64,000 nt of DNA from Streptomyces humicola (GTDB lineage: Bacteria; Actinomycetota; Actinomycetes; Streptomycetales; Streptomycetaceae), in assembly GCF_024436035.1 (NCBI RefSeq), contig NZ_JANFNG010000006.1, positions 62,001 through 126,000 of the forward strand, written 5' to 3'. How positions within the stretch are numbered: position 1 is the first letter of the stretch; each line of letters starts with the position of its first letter. Shown here piece after piece: positions 41,833-60,250 of the stretch. Under the pieces are notes generated by a model. It saw only the letters and a program-made list of their open reading frames with translations. It did no database searches and was not told the origin of the DNA. Both the position numbers and the translations under genes were made by a program.

Positions 41833-43125
41833 GTGCGTCGGCCAGGTTTCCGTGCCGTTGTGGTGTGCGGTCTGACTCTGACGGGCGGGGCTCTGGCGGC
41901 GGGCGTCGGAGCGAGTTCCGGCCACTCGTCCTGGGCCGCGGGGTCCACGTCCAGCCGCCTGATCCGACCGATGCGCGATCCCCACTTGCCGCCTCCGCTG
42001 GCCGACCTGCGCAATGTGGTCGTACCCGGGTGGCTGCGAGCCGCCACCGGCGACCGGTCCGCCCATCGAGGAGCCCAGGTCGCGGGGGCTGCGGGAATCT
42101 ACAGATACGCCGGCGCCGGCATGTTCAGCCCGGCCGTCGCAGGTGACCCCCAGTTGGTGTACGTGCCTAATAGCGGCGAGCCCGGCATGGGCGGAGGAGA
42201 CCCCTCGGACAATCCCGACCGCGACACGGTCACCGTCATCGATCCGAAGACCTTCAAGATCGTCGCCCATTTTCCGGTCGGGACTATGCCGCAACACGTC
42301 ACCCCCTCCTGGGACTTGAAGACCCTCTGGGTCGACGCCAGCGGCAGCAACCAACTCGTCCCGATCAACCCGCGCACCGCCAAACCCGGCAAGCCTGTCC
42401 CCGTCGGCGCCCCCTACAACCTGTACTTCACCCCGGACGGCAACAGCGCCCTGGCCTTCGCCGAACGCCGCAACCACATCGAAGTGCTGGATCCGCGCAC
42501 CATGCGACTGCGGCGTACCGTCGCCGTCCCCTGCCGGGGCATCAACCACGCCGACTTCTCCGCCGACGGCACCTACTTCATCACCACCTGCGAGTTCTCC
42601 GGCCAGCTGCTCAAGTACGACACCAAGACGCTGCAACTCCTCGACGACATCCGCCTCGGCCCGCACGTCGTACCCCAGGACATCCGCCTCGGTCCGGACG
42701 GGCATACCGTCTACGTCGCCTCCTTCACCAAGGGCGGAGTGATCGTCGTCGACGGCACGTACATGAAGGTCGAGGGCTTCATCGCCACCGGGGCCGGTAC
42801 GCACGGCATCTACCCCAGCCGCGACGGCAGATTGCTGTACGTCTCCAACCGGAACGCCGGCACCGTCAGCGTCATTGATCCCGCCACCCGGAAGGTCACC
42901 AGCACCTGGACCATCCCCGGCGGGGGATCCCCCGACATGGGCAGCGTCAGCGCCGACGGCACCCAACTGTGGCTCTCCGGACGCAACACCGACCAGGTCT
43001 ACGTCTTCTCCACCCACGACGGCCACCTGCTCGCCCGCATCCGCGTCGGCGCAAACCCCCACGGCCTGGCCTTCTTCCCCCAACCGGGTCGCTACAGCGT
43101 CGGCCACACCGGCAACTACCGCTGA
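41833..43125 (+). CDS. secreted YncE-like beta-propeller protein
   Basis: The 430-aa protein has an N-terminal signal peptide (RAVVVCGLTLTGGALAAG). Seven-bladed propeller repeats follow, such as DTVTVIDPKTFKIVAHFPVG, NHIEVLDPRTMRLRRTVAVP, GGVIVVDGTYMKVEGFI and GTVSVIDPATRKVTSTWTIP. Such proteins act outside the cell, often as binding scaffolds, and some are copper- or iron-repressed. CGGAGG lies 6 nt before the GTG start. Function is not known more precisely. Confidence 0.85.
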   Translation: MRRPGFRAVVVCGLTLTGGALAAGVGASSGHSSWAAGSTSSRLIRPMRDPHLPPPLADLRNVVVPGWLRAATGDRSAHRGAQVAGAAGIYRYAGAGMFSPAVAGDPQLVYVPNSGEPGMGGGDPSDNPDRDTVTVIDPKTFKIVAHFPVGTMPQHVTPSWDLKTLWVDASGSNQLVPINPRTAKPGKPVPVGAPYNLYFTPDGNSALAFAERRNHIEVLDPRTMRLRRTVAVPCRGINHADFSADGTYFITTCEFSGQLLKYDTKTLQLLDDIRLGPHVVPQDIRLGPDGHTVYVASFTKGGVIVVDGTYMKVEGFIATGAGTHGIYPSRDGRLLYVSNRNAGTVSVIDPATRKVTSTWTIPGGGSPDMGSVSADGTQLWLSGRNTDQVYVFSTHDGHLLARIRVGANPHGLAFFPQPGRYSVGHTGNYR

Positions 43126-43670: not shown

Positions 43671-44456
43671 CTACGGCGTGACAAATTGATAGCCGGCGTC
43701 GATCAAGCGGGGAAGCACGACCCGCAAGGCGGCCACCGTCTGGGAGCGGTCGCCCCCGCCGTCGTGTTCAAGGATGATCGACCCCGGATGGGTGTGGGCC
43801 ATGATGCGCTCGACGATGCGGGAGGTGCCCGGCCGGGACCAGTCGCGCGGGTCGACCGACCAGTCCAGCGGACGCATGTCCAACTCCCGGCAGGTGGACA
43901 GGGTCTGTTTCGACCAGGCCCCGTAGGGCGCACGGTAGAGGGCGGGCCGGTGGCCGGAGACCTTCTCTATCTCATCGCTGGTGCGCTCCAGCTGGGAGCG
44001 GACGGTCGCCGCCGAGGCGCGGGCCAGGTCGGCGTGGGTCCAGGTGTGGTTGGCGATCAGGTGGCCTTCGGCGGCCACCGCCCGCACCAGGCCGGGATAG
44101 GCGCTGACTTGGGCTCCGACCTGGCAGAACGTGGCGGTGATCCCGTAGCGGCGCAGAAGGTCCAGGACCTGTGGGGTCCATTCCGGGTGCGGGCCGTCGT
44201 CGATGGTCAGCGCGATCGCGTGCGGTCCCCGGTGGACGTAGAACTCCGGCTTGCCTGCCGGTGCGGCGTCGGGCGGGTCGCTGGGTGGCGGCGGGCTGGG
44301 GTGTGAGTCGCCCGGCACGGTGGTGGGCTGCGGGGTCTTCGACGCCGACGTAGGTGGGGGCGTGCTGGCGTGCGCCGCGCAGGCGCTGAGCAGCACCAGC
44401 CCACCGAGCGACATCAGGGCTCGGCGGGTGACCTGTGGATTGCCTGTGACCTTCAT
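43671..44456 (-). CDS. polysaccharide deacetylase lipoprotein (NodB domain)
   Basis: The 261-aa protein has a lipobox signal (LGGLVLLSACAAH), a Pro/Thr/Ser linker and a NodB domain: ALTIDDGPHPEWTPQ, ANHTWTHADLARAS, LYRAPYGAWSKQ, DWSVDPRDW and SIILEHDGGGDRSQTV. All five catalytic motifs are present. It should remove N-acetyl groups from peptidoglycan or chitin-like polymers at the cell surface. Confidence 0.9.
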   Translation of the reverse strand: MKVTGNPQVTRRALMSLGGLVLLSACAAHASTPPPTSASKTPQPTTVPGDSHPSPPPPSDPPDAAPAGKPEFYVHRGPHAIALTIDDGPHPEWTPQVLDLLRRYGITATFCQVGAQVSAYPGLVRAVAAEGHLIANHTWTHADLARASAATVRSQLERTSDEIEKVSGHRPALYRAPYGAWSKQTLSTCRELDMRPLDWSVDPRDWSRPGTSRIVERIMAHTHPGSIILEHDGGGDRSQTVAALRVVLPRLIDAGYQFVTP

Positions 44457-44889
44457 GCCATCAAAGACTGCAATCACCCGGATGGCGGTTTCATTCCGCG
44501 AGTCAGCACCCGAAATGAAATCCGCCACCGCCCCGATTCGGGCCACAGGCGGGTCCCCTCGGGCGGCTGCTCACACCTCACCCGACATGCCGGACACCCG
44601 GGGGCCTGTATGGGCCCGGCTCTCGGCCCCTGGGGTCTCCTCTGCCGACAGGGGTGGGCCGCCTTCGGCGGGGGGCTGTTGGGCCAGCCGGCGGAGCGGG
44701 CGGACACCCTGCGGCAGGCCATTCCCAAGGTGCCGTTGCGCCGCAGCCCGATCCATTTGACATTGACTTCCGTTGGCTCGGGGTCGGCCAGTGGCCGGTC
44801 GCTGGTGAGCGATGCCGGGCCACGGTCGGCGAAACGATGCCAGAGCGACCACCTTCGCGCCCCCATGCACACCAGGCCCCGCAGACACC
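44457..44889. other. intergenic stretch
   Basis: Only a decayed minus-strand scrap (VNVKWIGLRRNGTLG) is visible. It resembles the start of a small streptomycete hypothetical protein but is not intact. Confidence 0.3.
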
Positions 44890-45642
44890 TCAGAGCATGG
44901 TGACGAGCATGTAGCCCATGGTGATGCCCATGGCGATCTTGTAGCAGGCCGCGGCGCGTGGAGCGAGAATCGTCCTGCCCGACGCGGAGGTGTGCCCGGT
45001 CGGCTGTGTGCCGCAGCCGGCGGTGCCGCGCGCCGCGGTTCGTGCGTTTGCGCGGGTGATCCAGCCGAGGTCGCCCGAGGACCCGGCCGGGTTTTCGTCT
45101 GCGCTCCGGGCTGCCCTGCCGGTCGATGCCGGGCTCACCAGCGTGAGCCGGTCGCCGAGCCACACCACGTAGCCGACCATGAAGACCGCCAGGAGGAGCG
45201 CGAGGGCGGGGAAACGCGCCAAGCCGGTGCCGGCCGTTGCGCCCATGCCGGGCATGGCCATGCTCTTGCCGGTGTTGTCGGGGGCCGGGTTCTGGGCGGC
45301 GAGCAGCATGTAGAGCATGGCGCCGCTTTCGACCAGATGGGGCAGGGGGTGCGGGCAGCGCCAGCCCGTGGCGGCGTTGCCGCGCCAGGCCCGGACCGTT
45401 CGGGCAGCGAACCACGCTGCCGCGAGTGCGAAGGCCGCATCCCACACGCCGTTCGGTGCCGGGTCCAGCCGCGGTACGAGCATCCCGGCCATCGATATGC
45501 CCATGACGAGGTGGACCGCATCGGCATCCAACTCGACCTCCCGCCGTCGGAGCGAGGAGGTGAGCAGCCGGGCCACGCAGGAGAGGGCGATCACGAGCAT
45601 GATCGCGGCGAAGGTGTCGGTCAACCAGGAGGGTGACGCCAT
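44890..45642 (-). CDS. DUF5134 membrane protein
   Basis: The 250-aa protein has about six helices, beginning WLTDTFAAIMLVIALSCVAR. It includes HLVMGISMAGMLVPRL, HLVESGAMLYMLLA with Met/His residues in helices, and the C-terminal KIAMGITMGYMLVTML. This matches DUF5134. GGAGGAG precedes the ATG. It ends the copper-associated minus-strand gene run; Met- and His-rich helices fit a metal role, by inference. Confidence 0.8.
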   Translation of the reverse strand: MASPSWLTDTFAAIMLVIALSCVARLLTSSLRRREVELDADAVHLVMGISMAGMLVPRLDPAPNGVWDAAFALAAAWFAARTVRAWRGNAATGWRCPHPLPHLVESGAMLYMLLAAQNPAPDNTGKSMAMPGMGATAGTGLARFPALALLLAVFMVGYVVWLGDRLTLVSPASTGRAARSADENPAGSSGDLGWITRANARTAARGTAGCGTQPTGHTSASGRTILAPRAAACYKIAMGITMGYMLVTML

Positions 45643-45694
45643 GATCTTCTCCTCCGCATCGGTCGGGCCCGGCTGCGGTTCAGCGGGCCACGAT

Positions 45695-46699
45695 TCAGGA
45701 GTTCGCCGTCCCTTCACCGCTGGTTGCCGCGGATTGCTGCAGGGTGGACGGCCAGTAGGCGAGGGCGAGCAGGGCCAGCAGCGGCCCGGAGTTGGGGTCG
45801 GTCCCCTGACCGGTGAAGATGCCGCCGAGGGCTTCCCCGACGACCCAGATCACCAGTGCCAGCGCCAGGGCGAGCATGACGGCGACGCGGGCGGCGGGCC
45901 TCGGCAGGAACACGCCGACGGCGACGACGGTCAGCAGGACGGTCAGGGCGATCGAGACGGGCAGGCCCTGGTGTGCGACGAGGTTTGCGGCGTGGGTTTC
46001 GATCGAGGCGAGCCAACTGGGCTCACCGGAGGCCATCTGCGCGATCATGTCGTGCAGCCCCTGTGGGCTGCGGTTGCTGCCTTGGATGGCGAAGTACGCC
46101 AGGCTGCCCCACAGCACCAGCCACAGCACGCGTGCGGCAGTTGCACCGAGCGGGCGCTCGGCGACGAACCGAGACGGCGCCACGTCGTGATCCGTACGGG
46201 CGGTCGGCCACAGGAGCACGGCGAGCAGCGCGTAGAGGATGACGGCTCCGGGGGCGCCCATGACGGGGTTGGTGGTGCCGGTCAAGACGCCGCCGAGTCC
46301 CTCGCCGAACCACCACACGCCCAGCGACCAGGCGATCGATGCGGCGAGGGCGGGCTTGAGTGTGGGGCGCCAGGCGATGCCGAGGCCGAGCAGCACCTGG
46401 ATGGCGGCGAACGCGGCGTTGGTGGGGACGGGGTGGTGGGTGACGATCCCGGCGACCCAGGTGATGGGCTGGGCGATCACCTGCGGGTTGCCCTGTGCCG
46501 TGACGGCGAGCAACTGGGTGCCGAAGTTCTTGGTGAACATGTAGGGCTGGAACTGCAGCACGCCGTCGAGGAGCCAGATGGCTGCCAGGGCGAGCTGCAG
46601 CCACCGTCGGGCATCGCGCGCCTGCCACTCCGCTGCCGCCGCAGTTGTTGCTGGTCGCCTGGACCAACGTGCGCTGCCGACGGCGGTGTTGTCACTCAT
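45695..46699 (-). CDS. multi-pass membrane protein of copper cluster
   Basis: The 334-aa protein has eight or more helices, such as WLQLALAAIWLLDGVLQFQP, ALAASIAWSLGVWWFGEGLG and VALALVIWVVGEALGGIFTG-like repeats (VWWFGEGLGGVLTG and IWVVGEALGGIFTG). The two halves appear to be internal duplicates. I do not recognise a named family. It lies between DUF5134 and ctaG, so a role in oxidase assembly or copper handling is plausible. Confidence 0.7.
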   Translation of the reverse strand: MSDNTAVGSARWSRRPATTAAAAEWQARDARRWLQLALAAIWLLDGVLQFQPYMFTKNFGTQLLAVTAQGNPQVIAQPITWVAGIVTHHPVPTNAAFAAIQVLLGLGIAWRPTLKPALAASIAWSLGVWWFGEGLGGVLTGTTNPVMGAPGAVILYALLAVLLWPTARTDHDVAPSRFVAERPLGATAARVLWLVLWGSLAYFAIQGSNRSPQGLHDMIAQMASGEPSWLASIETHAANLVAHQGLPVSIALTVLLTVVAVGVFLPRPAARVAVMLALALALVIWVVGEALGGIFTGQGTDPNSGPLLALLALAYWPSTLQQSAATSGEGTANS

Positions 46700-46941
46700 G
46701 AGGTCATTCCTTCCCGGGATGGGGGGTGGCCGACACCATCGAACGGAGGTGAGGCGGCCTGAACTGTTGGAAAAATCAAGGGATTTGAGGGAGTTATCCG
46801 GCCTGTTCAAGCTGGCTGCTGCGGCCGGGGTTGCATTCGGGCTCTGGTCGTGACGGTCGGTCTGGCTACGGCGTACGGCGTACGGCGTGCGGGGTGGCGA
46901 ACGAGGCGTTCGCTCACGCCGGGGTAAGCGTCGTTGGGGCA

Positions 46942-48045
46942 TTACCCGAGGTCTTCTCGGGCGGCGAGGCGGGTCAGGTAGGCGTTGTAGGCGGTGAGTT
47001 CGGCGTCGTGGTCGCGGTCGGCCTGGCGGTCGGCGCGGGCTGCCGCGCGGCGTTCGGAGGCGGCCCAGGAGACGAGCAGGGCGAGCAGCACGAGGATGGT
47101 GGGGACTTCGCTGAAGGCCCAGGCGATGCCGCCTCCGGTGTTCTGGTCGGCGAGCGGGCTGAGGTGCCAGGCGGCCGGGGGGTGGGCGAAGAAGCCGACG
47201 ATGAGGGTGCTGGACATCATCACGGCGATGCCGAAGAAGGCGTGGAAGGGCATGCCGATGAACAGCTCCAGCATTCGCATCACATGGGAGGGGCGGCGCG
47301 GTGCCGGATCGACGCCCATGATCGGCCAGAAGAACAGCAGGCCCGTGGCGAGGAAGTGCGCGAGCATCCACTCGTGCCCGAGCCAGCTGCCCATCGCGGC
47401 GTCGAACAGCGGGGTGAAGTACAGGCCGTACAGGCTGGCGATGAACAGCGGCAGCGTGAACAGCGGTGAGGAGACGATCCGGGCCAGGCGGCTGTGCAGG
47501 AGCCGGATCAGCACCTCGCGCGGCCCGGTACGACCACGAGGTGCCGAGGGCAGGGCCCGCAGCGCCAGGGTGAACGGCGCGCCGAGCAGCAGCAGGATCG
47601 GGGAGAGCATGGACAGCACCATGTGCTGCACCATGTGGACGCTGAACAGCTCCATGCCGTACCCACCGGCCCCGGTGCAGGTGACCGCGGCGATGCTGAG
47701 CACCCCGGCCGTCCAGGCCAGGGTGCGGTGCAGCGGCCACTTGTCACCGCGCCGTCGCAACCGCCACACCCCTACCGTGTAGATCACCAGGGCCAGCACG
47801 CAGGCGGCCGGTTCCAGCGGGATCGGCTGGGGATGCCAGGCCAGCAACCGGGCCAGGGTCGGCGGGTCCATGGGCATCCACATCGGCCCGCTCATGGAGC
47901 CGTGCATGTGCATCGTCCCAGAGCCCGGCGCGTGTGGGCAGCCCGGCATCGGCATAGACGGCATGCACGGCATCGACCCCATACCGGACTTCGGGGGCGT
48001 CGCAGAGGCAGCCAGCAGGCCGAGCGCGTCATTTATCGCGGGCAT
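46942..48045 (-). CDS. ctaG: CtaG/Caa3-type cytochrome c oxidase assembly protein
   Basis: The 367-aa protein has a Met/His-rich N-terminus (MGSMPCMPSMPMPGCPHAPG, MHMHGSMSGPMWMPM). Seven helices of the CtaG_caa3 family follow: ELFSVHMVQHMVLSMLSPIL, YGLYFTPLFDAAMGSWLGHE, FHAFFGIAVMMSSTLIV. It is thought to help copper insertion into cytochrome oxidase. It starts 4 bp after the dyp gene ends, so the two are coupled. Confidence 0.88.
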   Translation of the reverse strand: MPAINDALGLLAASATPPKSGMGSMPCMPSMPMPGCPHAPGSGTMHMHGSMSGPMWMPMDPPTLARLLAWHPQPIPLEPAACVLALVIYTVGVWRLRRRGDKWPLHRTLAWTAGVLSIAAVTCTGAGGYGMELFSVHMVQHMVLSMLSPILLLLGAPFTLALRALPSAPRGRTGPREVLIRLLHSRLARIVSSPLFTLPLFIASLYGLYFTPLFDAAMGSWLGHEWMLAHFLATGLLFFWPIMGVDPAPRRPSHVMRMLELFIGMPFHAFFGIAVMMSSTLIVGFFAHPPAAWHLSPLADQNTGGGIAWAFSEVPTILVLLALLVSWAASERRAAARADRQADRDHDAELTAYNAYLTRLAAREDLG

Positions 48046-48049
48046 CGCT

Positions 48050-49291
48050 TCATGCCTCCAGCAGGTGTTGGCCGACGTACTCGCCGGGCTGGGCCCCGCC
48101 GGGCACGGCGAAGATCGCGCTGGACTCGTGCCGGATGAACCGGGTCAGGTGGTCACTGCCGTCGAGCTTGAGCTGGATCTGGATGAAACCGGTGGTCGGA
48201 TCGGCCTGCCAGCAGATGAACAGCAGCCCGGCATCAGGGCTGCCGTCCGCACGGTAGCCGTCGTGGTACGAGAACGCGCGCCGCAGGATGGTGGCTCCGG
48301 CGTTGGACTGGGCAGCCGCGACCCGGATGTGGGCGTCGCCGGGGATGGCGAGCGAGCCGTCCGGGTTGACCTTCTCCAAGTCCACCGGGGTGGTCTCGAT
48401 CCCGGTCGGTGCCGGGGCCGACAGCGGGGCGCCGTTGGACTTGCGCCGTCCGATGACCTGCTCCTGCTCGGTTTCGGTGAGGTCGTCCCAGGGGTCGAGC
48501 AGCATGCGGATGCGGCGTACGACGGCGTAGGAGCCGCCGTTCATCCACGCCTGCGGCCCGCTCTTGTCGGGCACGAAGATCTTGGCGTCGAAGTCCTTAT
48601 CAGTTGGTTTGGGGTTGTTGGTGCCGTCGATCTGGCCCATCAGGTTCCGGACCGTCATCGGACGGGCGGTAGCGCCCGGCGTGCGGTTGAACCCGTTCAT
48701 CTGCCACCGGGGCGTCGCCACCCCGGCGGCCTCCTTCTGCAGGATGCGCAGCGCGTGGAAGGCGACCAGCGGATCGTCCGCGCCGATCTGGATCCACAGG
48801 TCCCCGTTGCTCTGCTTGGGGTCGATCGCGTCAGAGGGGAACGCGGGCATCGGCACCAGTGCCGCCGGGGCGTGGTCGGCCAGGCCGGCCTTGGGGAAGA
48901 AGCTCGCGCCGAAGCCGAAGGTCACCGTCAGCGAACAGGGGCCCGCATCCAGTGCGATCTGGTCGTCCCCGGCCGGGGTGCGGCCTGCGGTCATCGCCTC
49001 GGCCGCCGCCGACCAGCGGCGCATCAGCCCGGCCGCCGCCTTGCGGTCGGCGCCGGGTGCGAGGTCGAAGGCGACGATGTGGCCCCGGGCCTGGGCCGGG
49101 GTGGTGATGCCCGCCTGGTGGGTGCCGTGGAACGGGACCATCGTGCTGCCCACCGCTGTCAGCGGCGTGGAGTGATGTGCGGCTGTGGAGCCGAGCACGC
49201 CGCCCGCTCCGCCGACCGCCAGGCCGGCCGCTCCGGCGGCGCCCGCCGTGCTCAGCAACCGCCGCCGGGAAATGCTGTGTTGATCCGTCAT
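48050..49291 (-). CDS. Tat-exported DyP-type peroxidase
   Basis: The 413-aa protein has a twin-Arg signal (SISRRRLLSTAGAAGAAGLA) and a dye-decolourising peroxidase fold. The distal motif is GQIDGTNNPKP (GxxDG), with FGFGASFF near the front and the proximal His region in DAHIRVAAAQSN. The C-terminal end is LLFICWQADPTTGF and FIRHESSAIFAVPGG. It uses haem and peroxide outside the membrane. In Streptomyces a DtpA-type DyP works with Sco and a copper radical oxidase; the sco gene here is in the same run. Confidence 0.9.
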   Translation of the reverse strand: MTDQHSISRRRLLSTAGAAGAAGLAVGGAGGVLGSTAAHHSTPLTAVGSTMVPFHGTHQAGITTPAQARGHIVAFDLAPGADRKAAAGLMRRWSAAAEAMTAGRTPAGDDQIALDAGPCSLTVTFGFGASFFPKAGLADHAPAALVPMPAFPSDAIDPKQSNGDLWIQIGADDPLVAFHALRILQKEAAGVATPRWQMNGFNRTPGATARPMTVRNLMGQIDGTNNPKPTDKDFDAKIFVPDKSGPQAWMNGGSYAVVRRIRMLLDPWDDLTETEQEQVIGRRKSNGAPLSAPAPTGIETTPVDLEKVNPDGSLAIPGDAHIRVAAAQSNAGATILRRAFSYHDGYRADGSPDAGLLFICWQADPTTGFIQIQLKLDGSDHLTRFIRHESSAIFAVPGGAQPGEYVGQHLLEA

Positions 49292-49407
49292 CTTCCTTAT
49301 TCCGCTTCTTTTGGACGCCACTTGCGGGTGTCGCTCCAAGGCCGGCTCGCGCGCTCCCCCGCGCACACCGCGGCCGCCGGGCTGCCGCACGCAGTGGGGG
49401 CGCCGGC

Positions 49408-49890
49408 TCAGCCCTTGGGCTGGTAGGTGGCAGGTTCGACCGGCGCCCGCACAGTGATCGGGGCCGAGGTGGCGAAGCGCAGGTGAAAGGCGACCGCCTG
49501 GCCGGCCACCGGCTTGTGCTTCAAGCCCATCAGCATCAGGTGGTTGCCCCCGGTGCTCAGCACGAGCCGGCCGCCCGCCGGAATCGTGAAGGAGGCCACC
49601 GGCTTCATCTGGTCGGACGCGGTCGTGGTGTGCATCGAGACGTCGGAGGCGATGTCGCTGGTGACCCCGGTCAGCCGGTCCGGGGCCGTGCCGGAGTTGG
49701 TGATGGCGAAGTAACCGGCGGCCATGTCGGCCATTGGCGGCTGCGGCACATACGCGCCCGTCACCTTCAGCTCCGGGCTGCCACCGGCTGGGGATGCGGC
49801 TGACGACGAGGTGGAGCAACCGGTGAGCGCGGTGGCGCCGACCACAAGGGTGGCCACGGCGACGGCTACGTGGGGTGCGAGGTTCTTCAT
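49408..49890 (-). CDS. PCuAC copper chaperone lipoprotein
   Basis: The 160-aa lipoprotein has lipobox ALTGCSTSS and the full copper motif: MHTTTASDQMKPV, then after ~20 residues NHLMLMGL. AAGYFAITNSGTAPDRLTGV is also family-typical. It would carry Cu(I) to the Cu-A centre of oxidase together with Sco. It overlaps the sco stop by 4 bp. Confidence 0.9.
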   Translation of the reverse strand: MKNLAPHVAVAVATLVVGATALTGCSTSSSAASPAGGSPELKVTGAYVPQPPMADMAAGYFAITNSGTAPDRLTGVTSDIASDVSMHTTTASDQMKPVASFTIPAGGRLVLSTGGNHLMLMGLKHKPVAGQAVAFHLRFATSAPITVRAPVEPATYQPKG

Positions 49891-50564
49891 GGCGTTTCTC
49901 CTTTGACGATCTTCGGCAGGTCCTGGGCGTACTGCGACTCCGGCACCCCGGAGGTGTAGAGCAGGTGGGCCTTGTCGTCCTTCGGCGAGAAGACGATGAC
50001 CTCGGCGCCGTGGCTGACGGTGTAGCTGCCGTCCGCGTGCTTGACCGGCGCGGAGATGCCCACACCAACGCTCTTCGCCGCGGCCTGGATCTGGCTGAAG
50101 TCGCCGGTCAGGCCGATGAAGGCGGGGTCGATGGCACCCAGCCACTGATTCAGCCGCTGCGGGGTGTCCCGGGCGGGGTCGGTGGTCACGAAGACCACCT
50201 GAAGGCGCTGCTGCTCCGCCGTGGGCAGCGTACGCGTGGCAGCCGCGATGTCAGCCATGGTCGTCGGGCACACATCGGGGCAGTGGGTGTAGCCGAAGTA
50301 CAGCAACAGCGGCTTGCCAGCGGTCTGCTTGACCAGGTTGTAGCTCTGACCGTGGTCGTCGGTCAGGGTCAGGCTCGGCTTGGTGTAGGGCGGGTCGAGG
50401 GTGATCGAGCCACTGGAGGCGGTGGGCGCGTTCGCGGGCACCGAGATCGAGGCGATCGGCTGATCGCCGGAGGAGCTGCCGCAGGCGGTCAGGGCCACAG
50501 TGGCCGTCGCGGCGAAGGCTGCAGCCGTCGCAAGACGGCGGGCGGATGACGCGAGGATACGCAT
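49887..50564 (-). CDS. sco: SCO1/SenC copper metallochaperone
   Basis: The 225-aa lipoprotein has lipobox ALTACGSSS and a thioredoxin-like Sco domain: LLLYFGYTHCPDVCPTTMAD with the CxxxC copper motif, FVTTDPARDTPQRL and a distal His in VSHGAEVIVFSP. It delivers copper to cytochrome oxidase Cu-A and, in Streptomyces, to other copper enzymes. It heads the sco-pcuAC pair. Confidence 0.92.
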   Translation of the reverse strand: MRILASSARRLATAAAFAATATVALTACGSSSGDQPIASISVPANAPTASSGSITLDPPYTKPSLTLTDDHGQSYNLVKQTAGKPLLLYFGYTHCPDVCPTTMADIAAATRTLPTAEQQRLQVVFVTTDPARDTPQRLNQWLGAIDPAFIGLTGDFSQIQAAAKSVGVGISAPVKHADGSYTVSHGAEVIVFSPKDDKAHLLYTSGVPESQYAQDLPKIVKGETP

Positions 50565-50913
50565 CAGGGAACTCCTGCACGTGGGTACGGCACGCGGCGG
50601 TCACCGCCGTCCAAAGGGGGCGGTGGGCTGCGTGCAGGACTGCACGACGAGACGAATCACCAAGCACGCACCGGTCCACACCCCCACGGCCACCGTCAGC
50701 ACGGGCATGGGAGATGAGGGAGCCGGTCAGGCAGCAGCCGAACCGTCGCAGGGGCCGAGGTTCTCCGGCGCACGGCGCGACCGAGGCAGGCCCGGACTGC
50801 CGCTTGATGAGCCCACGGTGGCGCCGCCGCCATCGAGGCGGTGAGTGTCTCGCCGAATGGCACGAGGACGGCCGCATGCACCCTGAGCGCGCGCAAGGCG
50901 CAGGCAGGGAGTT
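50565..50913. other. intergenic stretch upstream of sco
   Basis: It should hold the sco promoter. A 35-codon minus-strand frame (50601-50708, MPVLTVAVGVWTGACLVIRL) encodes one hydrophobic segment and could be a small membrane protein, but evidence is thin. Confidence 0.3.
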
Positions 50914-51714
50914 TCAGGCCGCCAGGGCCACGGCGGGCGGACCCCGCCGGATCACGCAGTGCTGCAGCGCGACAACCCGAAACCGCCCGGCCTGGTACTC
51001 CACGCGCGCCGGGCGCAACGCGGACAGGCCCTGCTCCAGCAGCCCAGCCACCAGCGCCAGCACGCGCATGGCAGCGAGGAGTCCGCTCAACGGCACCAGC
51101 AGAGCAAGGTGTTCCGCAACCACCGCATACAGCCGGACGAGCTGCCAGAGCGCGGCCTCGCCGCGGCGCAGCATCCAGCCGACGATGACGGCGGCGGTCA
51201 GATGCGCGGCGAGCATCGCCGCAGTGAACATCGCGCTCAGCGACATCGCGTGCGCGCCATGACCCACCATCCCGGCCATACCTGACATACCGGGCATACC
51301 GCCCATGGCTCGCGCCGGATTGATGCCCGATTGACGTACGATCTGCGCCGCGCGCTGCGGGGTTAGATGTGTCGGCTGCCCATTGCACAACAGCCGCTCG
51401 GCGAGGGCCATGACACCGCCGGAATTGTCCGCCGGGACGGCCATGGCGGAGCTCTGCCCGAGGCAGAAGAGCAGGTGTAGGCCGAGCTCGCCCGCCAGCA
51501 GAGTGGACGCGATGCCGGGCAGCGAACGCTCCCGTCCGGCCAGCGGCGCGGCCACACACAGCACCCCGGCCCAGCCCGCCGCCAAAGTCCACAGCGGGAC
51601 CCCAGCCCCCGAGGCCATCGCGTGCCCGGCCGCGGACAGCGTGACGCAGACCGCCGAGAACACCACGGCTCTCAGCAGTCTCAGATCGGCGCCGGCACGC
51701 ACGGGGACCGTCAT
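50914..51714 (-). CDS. Met-rich multi-pass membrane protein
   Basis: The 266-aa protein has about six helices. Between helices 3 and 4 is a Met-rich loop, ARAMGGMPGMSGMAGMVGHG, followed by AHAMSLSAMFTAAMLAAHLT. Such loops bind copper in other systems. Its family is not clear to me. It lies upstream of sco on the same strand but 349 bp away. A role in copper handling is inferred. Confidence 0.7.
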   Translation of the reverse strand: MTVPVRAGADLRLLRAVVFSAVCVTLSAAGHAMASGAGVPLWTLAAGWAGVLCVAAPLAGRERSLPGIASTLLAGELGLHLLFCLGQSSAMAVPADNSGGVMALAERLLCNGQPTHLTPQRAAQIVRQSGINPARAMGGMPGMSGMAGMVGHGAHAMSLSAMFTAAMLAAHLTAAVIVGWMLRRGEAALWQLVRLYAVVAEHLALLVPLSGLLAAMRVLALVAGLLEQGLSALRPARVEYQAGRFRVVALQHCVIRRGPPAVALAA

Positions 51715-51845
51715 AGCGCCGTCATCATTCCATCCGGCCCCCCGGCCCCCTGCGGCGGGGCCACCACGGAACCGCGGTCTCCCCGACGCTGAACCACCGG
51801 CTGTGGCTCAGTAACGCCAGGAAGCTACCCCCACCGTCGCGGCAC

Positions 51846-52197
51846 CTGCTGCGATTGCGGGAGGAGTACCGGAAGGAGACGGAAGGACCGCATATCGTCG
51901 CGGCCGGTCCGCCCATCACCCGCACCGGTGGACACTGTTGGTATCTCGGTGGCCAGGCCGACGGCGAGAAGGGGGTTATCGCCGCAGTCATCGAGCGGGA
52001 TCGGAACGGGGCGGACCTGGTCAAGATCATGGCGACCGGGGGCATGTCCACCATCGGCTCCGACCCGGGCGGTTCCCAGTACACCGCGGCGGAACTCGGC
52101 GCGGCAGTCCGTGCCGCACACAGGCTGGGCCCGCCTGTCACCGGACACGCGCATGGGGCCGCGGGGATCGCCGACGCGGTCGCGGCCGGGTGCGGCG
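51846..52197 (+). pseudogene. internal fragment of a metal-dependent amidohydrolase
   Basis: The frame reads LREEYRKETEGPHIVAAGPP, ITRTGGHCWYLGG, DLVKIMATGGMSTIGSDPGG and GHAHGAAGIADAVAAG. These include the carboxy-Lys and His regions of prolidase-like amidohydrolases. It lacks both the N-terminal barrel start and everything after ADAVAAG, where the sequence switches abruptly to repeat copy B. Confidence 0.75.
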
Positions 52198-52209
52198 TCC
52201 TGACCTATG

Positions 52210-52263
52210 ACGCGTCGTACTGCACCGCCCAAAGGCGTCCGTCCACCGGCTGTCCACCGGGGG
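52210..52263. repeat. ~51-bp dispersed repeat, copy B
   Basis: This is the counterpart of 18927-18979. On the minus strand it reads PVDGRLWAVQYDAS and then a stop, against MDGGLWTVQHEASR and a stop in copy A. The changes are conservative, suggesting both derive from the end of a coding region or element. Confidence 0.6.
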
Positions 52264-52386
52264 CGTCACTGAGCAGCGAAGCGAGGTATTCAGGTCGAGT
52301 TGTCGGGGTCCTGCAACAAGCGGCTTGCCGACCTTCACCAGCACGCCCGTGCGTGCTGAGCCAGCGGCCCCACAGCCGCGCCGCCG

Positions 52387-52797
52387 TCAGTTCGAGCCCA
52401 AGACCTCGATGACGCATTTCGCGGCACCGCTCCGTTCGATCCTCGCATCACTGGTGATCAGCGTTGCGGCGAGGGCCTCGGCCAGGGCGACGTACTGGGC
52501 GTCGTAGGCGCTCAGGTTTCCGTGGAGCGCCTGAACGCGGTCCCAGAGGAAGAGCGTCTCGTGTCGGACGAGTGGGAGCTGCCGGTATGCATCGATGGCC
52601 TTGCCCACTTCCCGTTCCGTGAGCTTGCCCCCTCTCCTCATGCCGAGCAGTGCGGACTGGATCTCGTAGTCGATGAGCGTGGGTACGGCGACGGCGTCGG
52701 CGGCGCCCACCCGGGTGCGGACGGCAACGCCGAGCGGGTCGTGGTTGGTGAGGAAGTGCACAAGGGCGGAGCAGTCGATGACGACCGCCTGGCTCAC
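52387..52797 (-). CDS. vapC: VapC-type PIN-domain toxin
   Basis: The 136-aa protein has the PIN layout: VVIDCSALVHFL with the first Asp, LIDYEIQSALLGMRR with the Glu, and NLSAYDAQYVALAEALAATL with a late Asp. A final LITSDARIER carries another acidic residue. It should be a ribonuclease held inactive by the antitoxin whose gene overlaps its start by 4 bp. Confidence 0.88.
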   Translation of the reverse strand: MSQAVVIDCSALVHFLTNHDPLGVAVRTRVGAADAVAVPTLIDYEIQSALLGMRRGGKLTEREVGKAIDAYRQLPLVRHETLFLWDRVQALHGNLSAYDAQYVALAEALAATLITSDARIERSGAAKCVIEVLGSN

Positions 52798-53024
52798 CGC
52801 CCGGTCCTCGCCTCGTCGATCGCGGCCAGCACGTCCTCCGTGCTGACGCTGGCCGTGGTCTCCCGGTTCAGGCGCGCCACCATCTCCGTCATGGTGGGCT
52901 TGGATGTCTCGCGCGCGATGAGATCGAGGAAGTAAGCCTGGAGGGACTTGCCGGCCTGTGCAGCACGAACCTTCAGGGTCTGGATCTGGTCATCCGGGAC
53001 GTCCCGAATCGTCAGAGCAGTCAT
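52794..53024 (-). CDS. vapB: VapB/FitA-type antitoxin
   Basis: The 76-aa protein has an N-terminal ribbon-helix-helix (TALTIRDVPDDQIQTLKVRA, AGKSLQAYFLDLI) and a C-terminal toxin-binding tail. It precedes and overlaps vapC. A -10 TATACT lies 6 nt before the ATG, so translation may be leaderless. Confidence 0.88.
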   Translation of the reverse strand: MTALTIRDVPDDQIQTLKVRAAQAGKSLQAYFLDLIARETSKPTMTEMVARLNRETTASVSTEDVLAAIDEARTGR

Positions 53025-53397: not shown

Positions 53398-54978
53398 GTG
53401 TCCGACGCTCCGCCGCCTCAGCCGTTCGCCTATCTGCAGGCGCCGAACGCCGCCCTCTACGGCCAGGTCCTGGCCGTGTTCGCGCAGGCACGGGAGCGGT
53501 TCATCGTCCATCTGCGGCCGGAGGACGTGGCCGCCGAGCTGCGCCAGGGCTCCGACGACGCGGCGGCGGTGCCGGTCGAGGCCGTCGGCGCGGCGCTGGA
53601 GAAGCTGGTCGAATGGAGCAACCTGCGGGCGGACGCCGACACCGGCCGGGTGACTTCGGTCGAGGACTTCCACCGGGCGCGCTATCTGTACCAACTCACC
53701 CGCCACGGTCAGGCCGCGCTGCGCGCGATAGCCGTGTACGAGCAGGCGCTGGGCCAACGCGGCCAGTTGCAGTCGGTCGCGCTGGCGGACATCGCCGAGC
53801 AGCTCGGCTCGCTGCTGGTCCTCGCGCAGGCGGAGGACCCCGATCCGGCGAAGACGCACCTGCTGCTGCTCCAGATCGCCGAGCGGTTCGGCAGCCTGGC
53901 GGACAACGCCCAGGCGTTCATGGCCTCGCTGCGCCGCACCATCGACTTCCAGGACGGCGACGAGGAGGCGTTCATCGCGTACAAGGACCGGCTGGTCGAG
54001 TACATCGAGCGCTTCATCGCCGACCTGGCGGGCCGCGGCGCGCAGATCGCGGATCTGCTCACCCGGCTGAACGCGGCCGACGTGCAGCGGCTGCTGGTGA
54101 CCGCCGCCCGTCGGGAGGCCGGTGACGCCGTACCCGACTCGGACGAACCGGAGGCGGAGCAGGCCCGCGCCGAGGCGACGCAGGCGGCGCTCATCGCGTG
54201 GGAGAACCGCTGGCGGGGCCTGGCCGACTGGTTCCTCAGCCGGTCCACGCGGCAGCCCTCGCAGGCGAAGCTGCTGCGCGGTGCGGCGGTCAGCGCGATC
54301 ACTGGCCTGGTCAACACGGTGGCGGCGCTGAACGAGCGGCGTGGCGGGCGCTCGGACCGGTCGGCCGACTTCCGGGCGCTGGCCCGGTTCTTCGCGCAGG
54401 CCCCGGATGATGCCGCCGCGCACCGCTTGTGGCGGGCGGCCTTCGCCCTCACCCCGGCCCGGCACCTGACGGTCGACGCCGCGACCGAGGCAGCCTGGCA
54501 GGACGCGGACCTCGCTGCCACCACGCCATGGGCCGAGGCCCCGCCGCTGGAGATCAGCCCGCGGCTGCGCGAGACCGGTTCGTACGAACGGCGCGGTATG
54601 CCTACCCGGGTCGCGGACCGCACGGCGGCGCGGCAGGTGCTGGCCGAGCAGGTCGAGCTGGAGGCCGCCCAGACCGCCGCCGCCCGGGCCCGGCTGGCCA
54701 CCGACGGCCCGGTGCTGCTCTCCGAACTGGCCGGCCCGGACGGGCTCGACCCGCACGCCTTCCGTTTGTTCCTCGCGGTGCTCGGCGACGCGCTGTCGGC
54801 ACGGGTGCCGGGCGAGAGCGAGTCCTCGGCGCTCACCGGGGACGGCACGATGGAGGTCCGGCTGAAGCTGGTGGACCCGGACACGGTGGTCGAGATCCCG
54901 ACCGCGGACGGCGTGCTCTCCGGGCCGGAACACATCATCGAGATCATCGACCTCGTGTCCACGGGAAGTGCGGCATGA
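53398..54978 (+). CDS. jetA: Wadjet JetA (DUF2397, TIGR02677)
   Basis: The 526-aa protein begins at the GTG giving VSDAPPPQPFAYLQAPNAAL. It has the family segments LVHLRPEDVAAEL-like (IVHLRPEDVAAELRQG), VEWSNLRADADTGRVTSVED and ARYLYQLTRHGQAA. It is the kleisin-like subunit that bridges the SMC-like JetC dimer. ATGA overlap couples it to jetB. The long C-terminal half includes LRETGSYERRGMPTRVADRT, typical of TIGR02677. Confidence 0.9.
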   Translation: MSDAPPPQPFAYLQAPNAALYGQVLAVFAQARERFIVHLRPEDVAAELRQGSDDAAAVPVEAVGAALEKLVEWSNLRADADTGRVTSVEDFHRARYLYQLTRHGQAALRAIAVYEQALGQRGQLQSVALADIAEQLGSLLVLAQAEDPDPAKTHLLLLQIAERFGSLADNAQAFMASLRRTIDFQDGDEEAFIAYKDRLVEYIERFIADLAGRGAQIADLLTRLNAADVQRLLVTAARREAGDAVPDSDEPEAEQARAEATQAALIAWENRWRGLADWFLSRSTRQPSQAKLLRGAAVSAITGLVNTVAALNERRGGRSDRSADFRALARFFAQAPDDAAAHRLWRAAFALTPARHLTVDAATEAAWQDADLAATTPWAEAPPLEISPRLRETGSYERRGMPTRVADRTAARQVLAEQVELEAAQTAAARARLATDGPVLLSELAGPDGLDPHAFRLFLAVLGDALSARVPGESESSALTGDGTMEVRLKLVDPDTVVEIPTADGVLSGPEHIIEIIDLVSTGSAA

Positions 54979-56150
54979 CCGACGCCGACGTCCAGGCCGA
55001 GCGGCGCCGGGCCACCCGCGCGCTGCTCGCCTCGCCGCTGATGACCAGCGGAAGCGAGGAGTTCCGGCTGGTCCGCAAGCACGCTGGCGAGCTGGCGGCC
55101 TGGTTCACCCAGGAGACCGGTTGGCGGCTGGTGGTCGACGCCGAAACCGCGCGGTTGTACAAGTCGCCCGTCCGGCTGGATGACGCGACCCGGCCTGCCC
55201 GGGCGCCGCGGACCAGGGTGCCGTTCACCCGCCGCCGCTATGTGCTGCTGTGCCTGGCGCTGGCCGTGCTGGAGCGGGCCGACGCCCAGATCACCCTGGG
55301 CCGGCTGGCCGACGGTGTGCTGACGGGTGCCGGTGACCCGGTGCTGGTGGCGGCGGGGACCGAGTTCCGGATGGACCGCCGCGAGGAGCGCTCCGACCTG
55401 GTGGCCGTGGTACGGCTGCTGCTGGACCGGGGCGTCCTGCACCGGGTTGCGGGCGACGAGGAGGCGTACCTGTCGGAGGCGTCCAACGACGTGCTCTACG
55501 ACGTGCGGCGGCGCGTCCTGGCCGCACTGCTGGCCGCGACCCGTGGCCCGTCCACGGTCGAAACCGCCGCCCCGGACCAGCGCCTGCCTCTGCTCACCTG
55601 CGAAGTCATGCCCGACACCGAGGAGTTGCGGCTGCGGGCGCTGCGCCACCGGCTCACCCGCAGACTGCTGGACGACCCGGTGGTGTACTACGCCGAGCTG
55701 CCGGAGAACGAGCGCACCTACCTGGTCTCCCAGCGCCACGCGATCACCCGCCGGATCACCGAACTCACCGGTCTGGTGGCGGAGATGCGCGCCGAGGGGA
55801 TCGCCATGGTCGACCCGGATGATGAGCTGACCGATCTGCGGATGCCCGAGCAGGGCACCGACGGCCACGCCACTCTGCTGGTAGCCGCCCACCTCGCCAC
55901 CGCCCAAGGCACCCGCACCGAGCCGCAACTCGTCGAGTTGGTACGGCAACTAGCGGTGCAACACCGCTCGTACTGGCGCAAGGGCGCCGCCGAGCCCGCC
56001 GCCGCAGCGGAATTGCTCGCCCAGGCTCTCGACCGGCTCGCCGCCCTCGACCTGGTGACCCGCGAGGGCGGGACCGTCACCGCCAAGCCGGCGCTGGTCC
56101 GCTACGCCCTGGCCGCCCCGACCATCCGAAAGGCCCGCTCCCGCTCATGA
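54975..56150 (+). CDS. jetB: Wadjet JetB (DUF2398, TIGR02678)
   Basis: The 391-aa protein contains RALLASPLMTSGSEEFRLVR, PFTRRRYVLLCLALAVLERA and ELPENERTYLVSQRHAITRR, characteristic of TIGR02678. It is the KITE-like winged-helix subunit that binds JetA. It overlaps jetA by 4 bp and jetC by 4 bp, so stoichiometry is probably set by translational coupling. Confidence 0.9.
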   Translation: MTDADVQAERRRATRALLASPLMTSGSEEFRLVRKHAGELAAWFTQETGWRLVVDAETARLYKSPVRLDDATRPARAPRTRVPFTRRRYVLLCLALAVLERADAQITLGRLADGVLTGAGDPVLVAAGTEFRMDRREERSDLVAVVRLLLDRGVLHRVAGDEEAYLSEASNDVLYDVRRRVLAALLAATRGPSTVETAAPDQRLPLLTCEVMPDTEELRLRALRHRLTRRLLDDPVVYYAELPENERTYLVSQRHAITRRITELTGLVAEMRAEGIAMVDPDDELTDLRMPEQGTDGHATLLVAAHLATAQGTRTEPQLVELVRQLAVQHRSYWRKGAAEPAAAAELLAQALDRLAALDLVTREGGTVTAKPALVRYALAAPTIRKARSRS

Positions 56151-59100
56151 CCCTGCCACAGCCATCCAAGAACCGCTGGCAGCCATTGCGCGCGGGGCTG
56201 GTCGACCTCTTCTACTACGACGCCGAGGAGTTCCGCTTCCACGACGGGCGGCTGCTGCTGCGCGGCAACAACGGCACCGGCAAGTCCAAGGTCCTCGCGC
56301 TCACCCTGCCGTTCCTCCTGGACGGCGAGCTCGCCGCGCACCGGGTCGAACCGGACGGCGACCGCGCCAAGCGGATGGAGTGGAACCTGCTGCTCGGCGG
56401 CAAGCACCCGCACGACGAGCGCACGGGCTACACCTGGCTGGAGTTCGCGCGGATCGGCGAGGACGGGAAGCCGCAGTACCGGACGGTCGGCTGCGGTCTG
56501 AAAGCGGTCAAGGGCAGGGGCATCGCCAAGCACTGGTTCTTCACCACATCTCTGCGCGTCGGACCGGAGCTGCCGCTGATGTCCGCCACCCGCGTCCCGT
56601 ACACCCGAGAGCGGCTGCGCGAGGCACTGCAGGGCCATGGGCTGGTCCACGACACGGCCGCCGAGTACCGCAGGGCGGTGGACGAGCAGCTGTTCGGCCT
56701 CGGCCCGGGCCGTTACGAGGCTCTGGTCAACCTGCTGATCCAGCTGCGCCAGCCGCAGCTGTCCAAGAAACCCGACGAGAAGCTACTGTCCAAGGCGCTC
56801 ACCGAGGCCCTGCCCCCGCTCGACCCCGCCCTCGTCGGCGAGGTCGCAGAGGCGTTCCGCGGCCTGGACGAGGAACGGCACGCCCTTCAGGCGCTTGCCG
56901 AGGCATCCGGCGCCGCTGCCGACTTTCTGACCCACTACCGCCGTTACGCGCGGATCGCGGCCAAGCGGCAGGCCGCCGTGGTGCGCGCCGCGCACAGCCG
57001 GTACGAGCACCTGGGCCGCGACCTCGGTGAGGCCGAGGCCGAACACGGCGCTGCCGAGGAGCGGTTGGCGCAGGCCGAGACGCGTCTGGCGGAACTGGAG
57101 GACGCCCGGGAGACCCTGGCCGCCGCCCGGGACGCGCTCACCCGCAGCCCCGAGATGGATGCCGCCCGCGAGCTGGAACAGGCCGGGAAGACCGCGGAGG
57201 CCCTACGCGCCGTCGCCGACGACCGCACCGGTGCCTGCCGTACCGCGCGCCGCCAGGCCGACGACTGGCAGCGCCGCGCCGCTGCCGCCCACGTCCAGCA
57301 CGAGGCCGATCGAGCAGCCCTCGCCGCAGCCGACAACGCCGCACGCCACGCCGCCGAAGCGGCCGGAATCGACCACGCGCCGGTGGCCGAGACGCTGGAG
57401 CGCGACCATGCTCCGTTCCAGGACACCCGCCGGGTGGGTGAGCGGGCGGTCGAACGCCGCCGCCAAGCCGTCACCGGCCTGGCCACGCTGCTCGCCGCGA
57501 CCGAGCGGGCGCACGAGCGGTCTCGTACGGCGCAGACCGAGGCCACGCGCCGCTCCGCCGACCTCGCGACCACCCGCGAGCGGTCCGCCGAGGCCGCGCA
57601 GGCCGTCGCCGAGCAGGGCACGGCCCTGACCGCGGCCTGGCGTACCTGGGCCGCCGATACGGTCGAGCTGCGCCTGCCCGACCCCGACCAGGCCCTGGCG
57701 GCCCTGGAAGCCTGGACGGACACCCTGGCCGGGCCCAACCCGGCGGCCGAGGCCGCCGCCGCGGCGTACCGCACGGCCGTGGGCGCGCTCACCCGCCGCG
57801 AGGCCGAACTCGACGCCGAGCACACCGCGGTACGGCGCGAACTCGCCGCCGTGGACGACGAGATCGCCCGCCTGGAATCCGGCGGCCACGACGCCCCTCC
57901 CTTGGCGCACACCCGCGATCCGCGGGCCCGCGCCGACCGTCCGGGAGCGCCCCTGTGGCGGGCCGTCGACTTCGCCGACGCGGTACCGGCCGAGCACCGC
58001 GCCGGGATCGAGGCCGCGCTGGAGGCCACCGGGCTGCTGGATGCCTGGCTCACCCCGGACGGCACCCTGCTCGACGCCGACGACGCCGCCCTGCTGCCCG
58101 GCGGCAAGGCCCCCGCCACCAGCCTCGCCGCCGTGCTGCGCCCGGCCGTCGACCGTGCCGACCCGCTGGCTGCCGCCCTCGACGACGAAGCGGTTCAGGC
58201 CGTGCTCGCCGCGATCGCCCTCGGCGGGGACGCCGACCACCACACCTGGGTGGCCACCTGTGGCCGGTACCGGATCGGCGCCCTGACCGGCCGCTGGACC
58301 AAGCCCGCCGCCCACTACATCGGCGAAGGCGCCCGGGAGGCCGCCCGCCGCACCCGGCTCGCCGAGCTGGCTGCGCAGCGCGGCGAACTCACCGCCCGAC
58401 TCGAGAAGTTGGACGAGCAGCGCGGCGTCGTCCGGGCCCGGGCCAATGCGCTGGCCGCCGAGCAGCAATCCCAGCCCTCCGACCACGCACTGCGCGAGGC
58501 ACACGCCCGCGCCGGTCACGAGGCCGAGTCCGTACACCGCCTGACGGACCGCCTGGCCGAGGCCGAGCACGAGGCCGCCGCCCGCCAGAAGGACGCGGAG
58601 CGCGCTGACCGGGAGGTCCACGAGTACGCCCAGGACACCGGCCTGCCCACCACGCGCGCGGAACTCGAACAGGTCCGCGACGCCGTGTCCGGCTACGCCG
58701 CCGCCCTCGCCGCGCTGCTTCCGGCCGCCGTTGCCCAGGCTCGTTCCGCCGCCCTCGCGGCCGAGACCGCCGCCGAGGCCGAGGCCGCCGCCGCCGCTCT
58801 CGCCGAGGCCGAGGAGGCTGAGACCGCCGCCCGTCGTACGGCCGACGCGGCGGCCGCGCGTCACCGAGTGCTGGCCGAGACGGTCGGTGCGAGCGTCGAG
58901 GAGCTGTACCGGCGGCTGGCCGAGGCCGACGCGGCGATCACCGCCCGGGACGCCGAGGAGAAGACCACCCGCCGCACCCGGGACGAGGCCATGACCGCCC
59001 GCGCCCGCGCCGAGGGCCGCTGCAGCGAGATCCGCGCCCGGATCGAGGAGGCCACCGCCGAACGCGACCGGGCCGTGACCGCCCTTAGCGCCTTCGCCGC

Positions 59101-60247: not shown

Positions 60248-60250
60248 CCG

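Follow-up and report, generated by a model that had tools for sequence, protein, structure and literature searches.

A rewired copy of the sco/dtpA copper-delivery cluster in Streptomyces humicola carries CtaG, DUF5134 and a tandem-duplicated membrane protein

The sco/dtpA cluster of Streptomyces (SCO3968-SCO3963; SLI_4214-4211) is a described copper-delivery system. In S. lividans the operon has sco and ecuc (PCuAC) first, and further contains a gene for a putative copper transporter (SLI_4212) and dtpA, which encodes a Tat-exported DyP peroxidase (PMC4736821). Sco, ECuC and DtpA are involved in copper trafficking and in the maturation of GlxA, which at low copper requires DtpA and Sco (PMC4736821). 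A reduced oxidase activity of the dtpA mutant is mentioned in one sentence of the same paper, citing a reference and unpublished data, and the link between DtpA and oxidase activity comes down to that sentence (PMC4736821). The legend of Fig. 1 of Blundell 2013 lists an integral membrane protein (3968), a hypothetical membrane protein (3967), Sco (3966), 3965, CopC/CopD (3964), 3963 and a prephenate dehydratase (3962) (PMC3603459). For bacterial Sco no consensus role has been reached, and a chaperone role has been argued in S. lividans (PMC3603459). How Sco is reduced, oxidized and loaded at the membrane is unsettled, and this is why a candidate membrane partner matters. Here we describe seven genes between positions 44890 and 51714 of a 64,000-nucleotide stretch of Streptomyces humicola DNA (contig NZ_JANFNG010000006.1, positions 62,001 to 126,000), which as a whole is called the window.

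Judged by gene content, these genes are the actinobacterial sco/dtpA cluster present in a second copy that has been rewired. The copper-delivery role that a first-pass annotation, made from the sequence alone, had assigned to them is well supported by the core of the set, which is that of the published cluster (PMC4736821, PMC3603459). Sco, PCuAC and the peroxidase are therefore not new. New in the window copy are the loss of YcnI (SCO3967 position) and CopC-CopD (SCO3964), and the gain, after DyP, of CtaG, a tandem-duplicated membrane protein that we call dup, and DUF5134. The pair of dup and DUF5134 is most likely a membrane partner of Sco, and the strongest support for this is a protein of other genomes that joins a dup domain and Sco in one chain. 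The genes are, in their order along the minus strand:

50914..51714, minus strand: Met-loop membrane protein, 266 aa, 5 predicted transmembrane helices, Met-rich loop at about residues 137-157
49887..50564, minus strand: Sco, lipoprotein-type copper chaperone; PF02630 (SCO1-SenC) 119.6 bits; CPDVC motif and downstream His
49408..49890, minus strand: PCuAC (ECuC) copper chaperone; PF04314 105 bits; 4-bp overlap with Sco
48050..49291, minus strand: DyP peroxidase, Tat-exported, DtpA/SCO3963 type; PF04261/PF20628; SRRRLL and GQIDG motifs
46942..48045, minus strand: Caa3_CtaG oxidase-assembly factor; PF09678 295.2 bits; Met/His-rich N-terminus
45695..46699, minus strand: dup, tandem-duplicated membrane protein, 334 aa; homologous halves, helix run repeated in the model
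44890..45642, minus strand: DUF5134 membrane protein with conserved Met and His; PF17197 73.3 bits; coupled partner of dup

The placement of the seven genes on one strand was borne out by open reading frames, starts, third-position GC content (GC3) and Pfam. All seven start with ATG and have a coding-type GC3 of 0.84-0.91, and a purine-rich stretch resembling a ribosome-binding site precedes six of them, being weak at 50914-51714. The five genes of named families (Sco, PCuAC, DyP, CtaG and DUF5134) all score far above the Pfam cut-offs, which are 29 bits for DUF5134 and a curated 27.7 bits for CtaG; the N and C domains of Dyp_perox gave 123.6 and 153.6 bits when DyP was scanned from residue 8 onward. 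The DyP start lies at about 49291, with the Tat-type motif SRRRLL read from the translation, and the DUF5134 start is better placed at 45642 than at 45717. CtaG was rightly described as Met/His-rich (12 Met, 4 His and 2 Cys in residues 1-75), and so was the Met-rich loop of 50914-51714, where residues 130-170 contain 8 Met. With gaps of 349 bp before Sco and 242 bp before dup, the seven same-strand genes are not established as a single transcript; a scan of 44600-52100 for sigma-70 promoters and intrinsic terminators returned none, and shuffled sequences gave 0.3 and 1.7.

What is shared with the Streptomyces cluster is Sco followed by PCuAC, a DtpA-type Tat-exported DyP, and a leading membrane protein at the SCO3968 position. 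As YcnI before Sco and CopC-CopD between PCuAC and DyP are absent, with no match to YcnI, CopCD or their remnants better than E 0.7 in window 44001-52500, the set was classed as a variant of this cluster. The nearest solved relatives of the DyP are SCO3963 (4gt2, 530.7 bits) and DtpA (5mjh, 508.8 bits), and the remaining DyP chains within an E limit of 1e-30 gave 171.9-286.6 bits. The protein also exceeds the curated cut-off of the EfeB equivalog TIGR01412 (465.1 against 428 bits). That it is simply EfeB was rejected, as the chains named deferrochelatase or EfeB are much more distant from it than SCO3963 and DtpA; neither efeU nor efeO was found by Pfam among the seven genes. CtaG scores 35.6 bits against the caa3_CtaG equivalog TIGR02737, below its cut-off of 279, and equivalence to the function of Bacillus CtaG is not implied. 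Another described combination of Caa3_CtaG with copper delivery is CtiP of Corynebacterium, a fusion whose part outside the Caa3_CtaG domain is CopD-like. With its PCuAC/CopC operon it likewise couples Caa3_CtaG to PCuAC-type copper delivery in an actinobacterium (PMC9145763). In contrast to CtiP, the CtaG of the window stands alone, and the available text of the CtiP account mentions no DyP, dup or DUF5134 partner (PMC9145763).

The Met-loop protein belongs to the conserved sco/dtpA cluster as its first gene. Wherever the best-matching locus of a relative is uncut, which is the case in 20 genomes, the order is Met-loop, YcnI, Sco, PCuAC, CopCD, DyP (20 of 20); the sample consisted of the best Met-loop locus in 21 genomes chosen from the top of the match list, and was therefore non-random, and the 21st locus (L141) reaches the contig end after YcnI. 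By gene position, which agrees gene for gene with the order in the Blundell 2013 legend (PMC3603459), the protein fits as the equivalent of SCO3968. Homologues occur in 51 of 61 genomes, the own genome counted, mostly in several copies each. These paralogues often lie outside such clusters, and two in the own genome (L037, L038) have no other cluster families beside them. A homologue lies between or beside DUF5134 and CtaG in 8 of 60 other genomes (coordinates compared by eye). In an alignment of 17 sequences, which includes truncated and near-identical ones, all have His171 and RGPP (257-260), 76% have His31 and 71% His80; together with the Met-rich loop these residues make a copper-binding membrane protein plausible. 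The protein matched no Pfam or NCBIfam family and no solved relative by sequence at E up to 1, and profile-profile alignment (hhalign) to DoxX, HTTM, CtaG, CopCD, YcnI and DUF5134 gave no signal.

A separate protein that joins a dup domain to a Sco domain is encoded at six loci of other genomes (L054, L057, L058, L061, L068 and L100). The fused dup domain is 30-32% identical to the window dup, and the Sco part matches PF02630 with 44.9-48.8 bits in the three proteins scanned (cut-off 22.8). CxxxC and a candidate His are kept in the Sco part of all six. Their dup part retains D45, Q51, M54, W124, W129, P150-G151, Y156, W285 and T300-D301-P302 in every case, and E133 in five of six. Among the open-licence papers listed in our searches we met no description of such a fusion. 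As an undescribed membrane family whose members occur both on their own and, in certain genomes, joined to Sco, dup is a direct candidate for a Sco partner, and the fusion gives a lead to its job.

To place dup more widely, one genome per species was searched; 196 of the 261 candidate stretches encode relatives, and the best 80 of the 196 were analysed. No dup of less than 450 aa was called at eight of the 80 loci, leaving 72 (68 with at least 600 bp downstream). The gene caller, home-made and tuned to GC-rich DNA, calls too few genes at low-GC loci, and a dup locus that runs into a contig end was counted in its visible form. By taxon, 79 of the 80 belong to Actinomycetota (Streptosporangiaceae, Acidimicrobiales, Trebonia, Streptacidiphilus, Actinospica, a Mycobacterium and others) and one to a Melainabacteria bin. 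Among the 60 relative genomes dup homologues occur in six, two of these being short partial matches. DUF5134 is the next gene after dup in 41 of the 72 loci, within 30 bp in 38 of these and with a 4-bp overlap in 21, and the two thus form a coupled pair. The first-pass annotation had named, as a result that would speak against it, a failure of its two unassigned membrane genes to co-occur with sco or ctaG in other genomes. No such failure was seen: the Met-loop gene heads the Sco cluster in all 20 uncut loci, and dup has its DUF5134 pairing and the Sco-fused homologue at six loci on its side, though it is found only patchily with sco or ctaG genes that stand alone.

Eight copper-handling families were looked for in flanks of up to 10 kb to the left and right; one or more of them was present at 20 of the 41 dup-DUF5134 loci, compared to none of 20 control stretches of 20 kb taken from two relatives (Fisher p 7.3e-5, uncorrected for relatedness). 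The commonest of these neighbours were Cu-ATPase genes, found at 16 of the 41 loci with a profile that was built from the same loci. The Cu-type P-ATPases near dup loci carry YN..P in 19 of 20 and MxxSS in 14 of 20. Pfam was run on 212 of the 226 listed neighbour genes, the genes of L095, L107, L117 and L128 being left out. Among 108 near neighbours in loci L054-L088, 18 have P-type (E1-E2) ATPase domains and 13 HMA; in the 104 neighbours of L090-L133, kinases and regulators are commonest, with four cupredoxins and two HMA. These ATPases would suit a reading in which dup and DUF5134 form a copper-tolerance module, exporting or detoxifying Cu(I) outside the membrane with a CopA-type ATPase, that was recruited here by chance and is unrelated to oxidase assembly. 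DoxX-type proteins do occur in copper-stress operons (Gig and the bufferin clusters; PMC10304878, PMC12452194). The resemblance is that of a small membrane protein in a copper operon; unlike GigT and the bufferin-cluster DoxX, dup is duplicated, has no PF07681 match, is paired with DUF5134 and forms one chain with Sco in some genomes. Against a tolerance module stand the six fusions, Sco being an assembly chaperone, and the loci that also contain Sco, PCuAC, CtaG or DyP: the window itself, L090, where Sco, CtaG and dup are consecutive, and L125 (Actinospica durhamensis), with the order Met-loop, PCuAC, Sco, DyP, Met-loop, MauE, DsbA, dup, DUF5134. We consider tolerance a possible role for the pair, on the unlikely side. 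At L125 (8260-9818; L043 11546-13104) a MauE-like membrane protein and a DsbA-type thioredoxin, both thiol-redox genes, stand beside the module, between Met-loop and dup-DUF5134.

DUF5134 is present in 45 of the 60 relative genomes, and in 12 of the 60 it lies within 7 kb of a CtaG homologue, as compared by eye (G003, G038, G039, G041, G042, G043, G044, G045, G046, G047, G049 and G054). In 42 dup-paired sequences H44, M47, M51, M54, H98, H102, M109, M112, M133, M238 and M242 are each conserved in 74-95%, with the spacings H44-x2-M47-x3-M51-x2-M54, H98-x3-H102, M109-x2-M112 and M238-x3-M242. AlphaFold gave a six-helix model (local confidence score, pLDDT, 78.8), for which the fold search returned no convincing match (best Z 4.6 among 95 chains). 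No signal was obtained with hhalign against DoxX, HTTM, CtaG, CopCD, YcnI and the Met-loop protein, and a search of the open-licence literature found no paper on DUF5134.

The internal duplication of dup proved to be real: when profiles of its halves were compared, the match spanned 134 columns at a probability of 99.4% and E 3.7e-21. As the first-pass annotation had held for 45695-46699 and 50914-51714 alike, no Pfam or NCBIfam model is above cut-off; for dup, DoxX (PF07681) and HTTM (PF05090) were unmatched at E up to 1, and no solved relative was found by sequence at the same limit. The alignment was built from 64 called dups of 270-400 aa, minus four near-duplicates and minus L117, L131 and L133, which gives 57 plus the window protein. 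Across these 58 sequences W42, L48, Q51, M54, P72, L118, W124, W129, E133, G136, P150, G151, Y156, W164, P165, W193, W197, W285, G292, D301 and W316 are invariant. In the AlphaFold model (pLDDT 88.8; predicted TM-score, pTM, 0.87) the same run of helices occurs twice.

The best structural resemblance of this model is to the membrane domain of gamma-carboxylase (GGCX; Z 11.4 over 240 residues at 6.2 Å) and, for the N-terminal unit, to NACHO/TMEM35A (Z 9.1, 115 of 133 residues at 3.4 Å), both Z values being under the approximately 13 advised for helical bundles, where Z 11 is reachable by chance. The HTTM domain of GGCX and the DoxX-like domain of TMEM35A are taken here as members of a wider DoxX/HTTM superfamily, in which the membership of dup is unproven. 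In comparison to GGCX and NACHO, dup shows 8-15% identity, no profile match to HTTM or DoxX, and no carboxylase domain. With hhalign, dup reached 0.1-0.2% probability against DoxX and HTTM and 0.1-0.8% against unrelated membrane profiles; the test is powerless, as HTTM and DoxX compared with each other reached 0.6%. Searches of the open-licence literature returned nothing that pairs HTTM with DoxX, or any two of gamma-carboxylase, HTTM, DoxX-like and TMEM35A.

It is conceivable, though we find it doubtful, that dup is a structural or lipid- or ion-handling membrane protein, that its likeness to DoxX and HTTM is a common helical arrangement, and that the Sco fusion serves membrane anchoring and not redox exchange. 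The sequence signal to the DoxX and HTTM profiles does not go beyond that to unrelated membrane families, helical models reach such Z values by chance, and for S. lividans Sco the reported role is copper chaperoning rather than thiol reduction (PMC3603459). However, the gamma-carboxylase rows stand above the unrelated rows in the fold search, NACHO aligns over 115 of its 133 residues, and the strictly conserved polar residues Q51, E133 and D301, with the near-conserved D45, suggest an active or binding site.

The likely client of the window cluster is cytochrome c oxidase rather than GlxA, since the genome yielded a single galactose-oxidase-like (GO-like) domain, of family PF09118 (C-terminal domain of GlxA type), and this is a remnant, and the presence of CtaG would point to the oxidase as well. 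The remnant is a 134-aa frame with no intact gene (own contig C20:8238-8528; L183/L184), to which a galactose-oxidase-type protein of a relative aligns over approximately its last 100 residues only, with 33% identity. Complete canonical clusters were seen in 20 relatives, and in 7 of these PF09118 was also unmatched (G001, G008, G012, G014, G018, G024 and G031). As these relatives have kept the DtpA cluster, GlxA cannot be its only client there. That some unknown copper enzyme, secreted like GlxA of S. lividans, which needs DtpA and Sco for maturation at low copper (PMC4736821), is the client of the whole second cluster, with CtaG, dup and DUF5134 as bystanders, is improbable, given that CtaG is an oxidase factor by family and that the GO-like domain is broken (other copper enzymes were not searched for).

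The window holds the sole intact set of four in this genome. The canonical cluster on own contig C10 (L035) has a decayed remnant of DyP. A copy in the window arrangement on C55 (L034) lacks the stretch from inside Sco into DyP, has CtaG split over two frames and a dup that ends early, and C11 (L036) carries a decayed, broken dup-DUF5134.

With the oxidase as the likely client, we propose that PCuAC would pass copper to Sco outside the membrane and the DtpA-type DyP would use peroxide to set the redox state of copper and Sco, both following the published model by homology, and that CtaG would help to load the oxidase core with copper, a family role that has been called tentative (PMC9145763). 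Dup and DUF5134 would be a membrane module working with Sco. Dup, with its two DoxX/HTTM-like helical units, would most likely dock Sco and exchange electrons, or a redox equivalent of copper, with the quinone pool of the membrane, and DUF5134 would most likely hold or pass Cu(I) through its conserved MxxxM and HxxxH helix motifs. The quinone coupling is the weakest step; it has a parallel on paper in GigT, a DoxX-type protein of a copper operon, for which a transfer of electrons from Cu(I) to the quinol pool has been put forward as a hypothesis (PMC10304878). Because the role described for S. lividans Sco is that of copper chaperone instead of thiol-disulphide reductase (PMC3603459), exchange of a copper redox equivalent is likelier for dup than a thiol role. 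Taken together, the picture of a rewired sco/dtpA copy with the oxidase as client and a Sco-partner module of a quinone-linked dup and a Cu(I)-handling DUF5134 is one on which we are evenly divided. A bolder version, in which dup founds an undescribed family of quinone-linked DoxX/HTTM-fold enzymes that recharge Sco (its CxxxC thiols or its copper), DUF5134 is a Ctr1-like Met/His path on which Cu(I) crosses or follows the membrane to reach Sco, and the fusion is the same machine in one chain, seems quite unlikely to hold in full.

Several observations weigh against this proposal. W193 and the residue at G292 are not retained in the fusions, and dup has no conserved Cys or His across the 58 aligned sequences. 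The fold matches have the low Z values given above, the one to gamma-carboxylase a root-mean-square deviation of 6.2 Å, and a Foldseek search with the dup model gave no match at E <0.001. Copper genes are near only 3 of the 39 dup loci without a DUF5134 call, and 57 of all 80 dup loci have none within reach. The controls of the copper comparison came from genomes other than those of the dup loci, and the Cu-ATPase profile, being derived from dup loci, biases it toward them; without this profile 12 of 41 loci remain, and in six of those 12 the Sco match is the dup-Sco fusion protein itself. The chaperone role reported for S. lividans Sco speaks against a thiol-recharging dup. The genome also has six other DyP-domain matches, four of them in 449-662-aa frames, and two further CtaG homologues besides the split copy on C55. 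Finally, the mechanism is a prediction from genes, comparisons and models.

The first-pass annotation had taken the 4-bp gap between DyP and CtaG (48046-48049) as a sign that peroxidase and oxidase assembly are linked. This adjacency was seen in this genome alone, in the window and in its decayed copy, and in 0 of 60 relatives among the matches listed. Conserved DyP-CtaG adjacency was consequently dropped, the gap does not serve as evidence for such a link, and the coupling looks like a local rearrangement and not a conserved signal.

Some distant dup genes have other surroundings. At ten loci (L091, L093, L095, L106, L107, L115, L117, L120, L128 and L132) dup and a sensor-kinase-like gene are arranged tail-to-tail, with a response regulator after the latter, and several of these loci also carry cupredoxin-like and NrfC/NrfD genes. 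At L104, L105, L113 and L114 it is 21-26 bp from a convergent gene that by eye resembles a sulfide:quinone reductase-type flavoprotein.

In the window, the cluster has a polysaccharide deacetylase beside it (43671-44546, minus strand) and a YncE-like beta-propeller (41833-43125, plus strand), which also matches lactonase-type NosZ, far under the cut-off. On the other side lie a PIN-domain protein (52387-52797, minus strand) with a short open frame just upstream (52794-53024), possibly a toxin-antitoxin pair, and a complete type II Wadjet-like anti-plasmid defence operon, JetA-JetB-JetC-JetD (53398-61510, plus strand), with PADLOC scores of 637.1, 474.8, 1544.6 and 473.5 bits.

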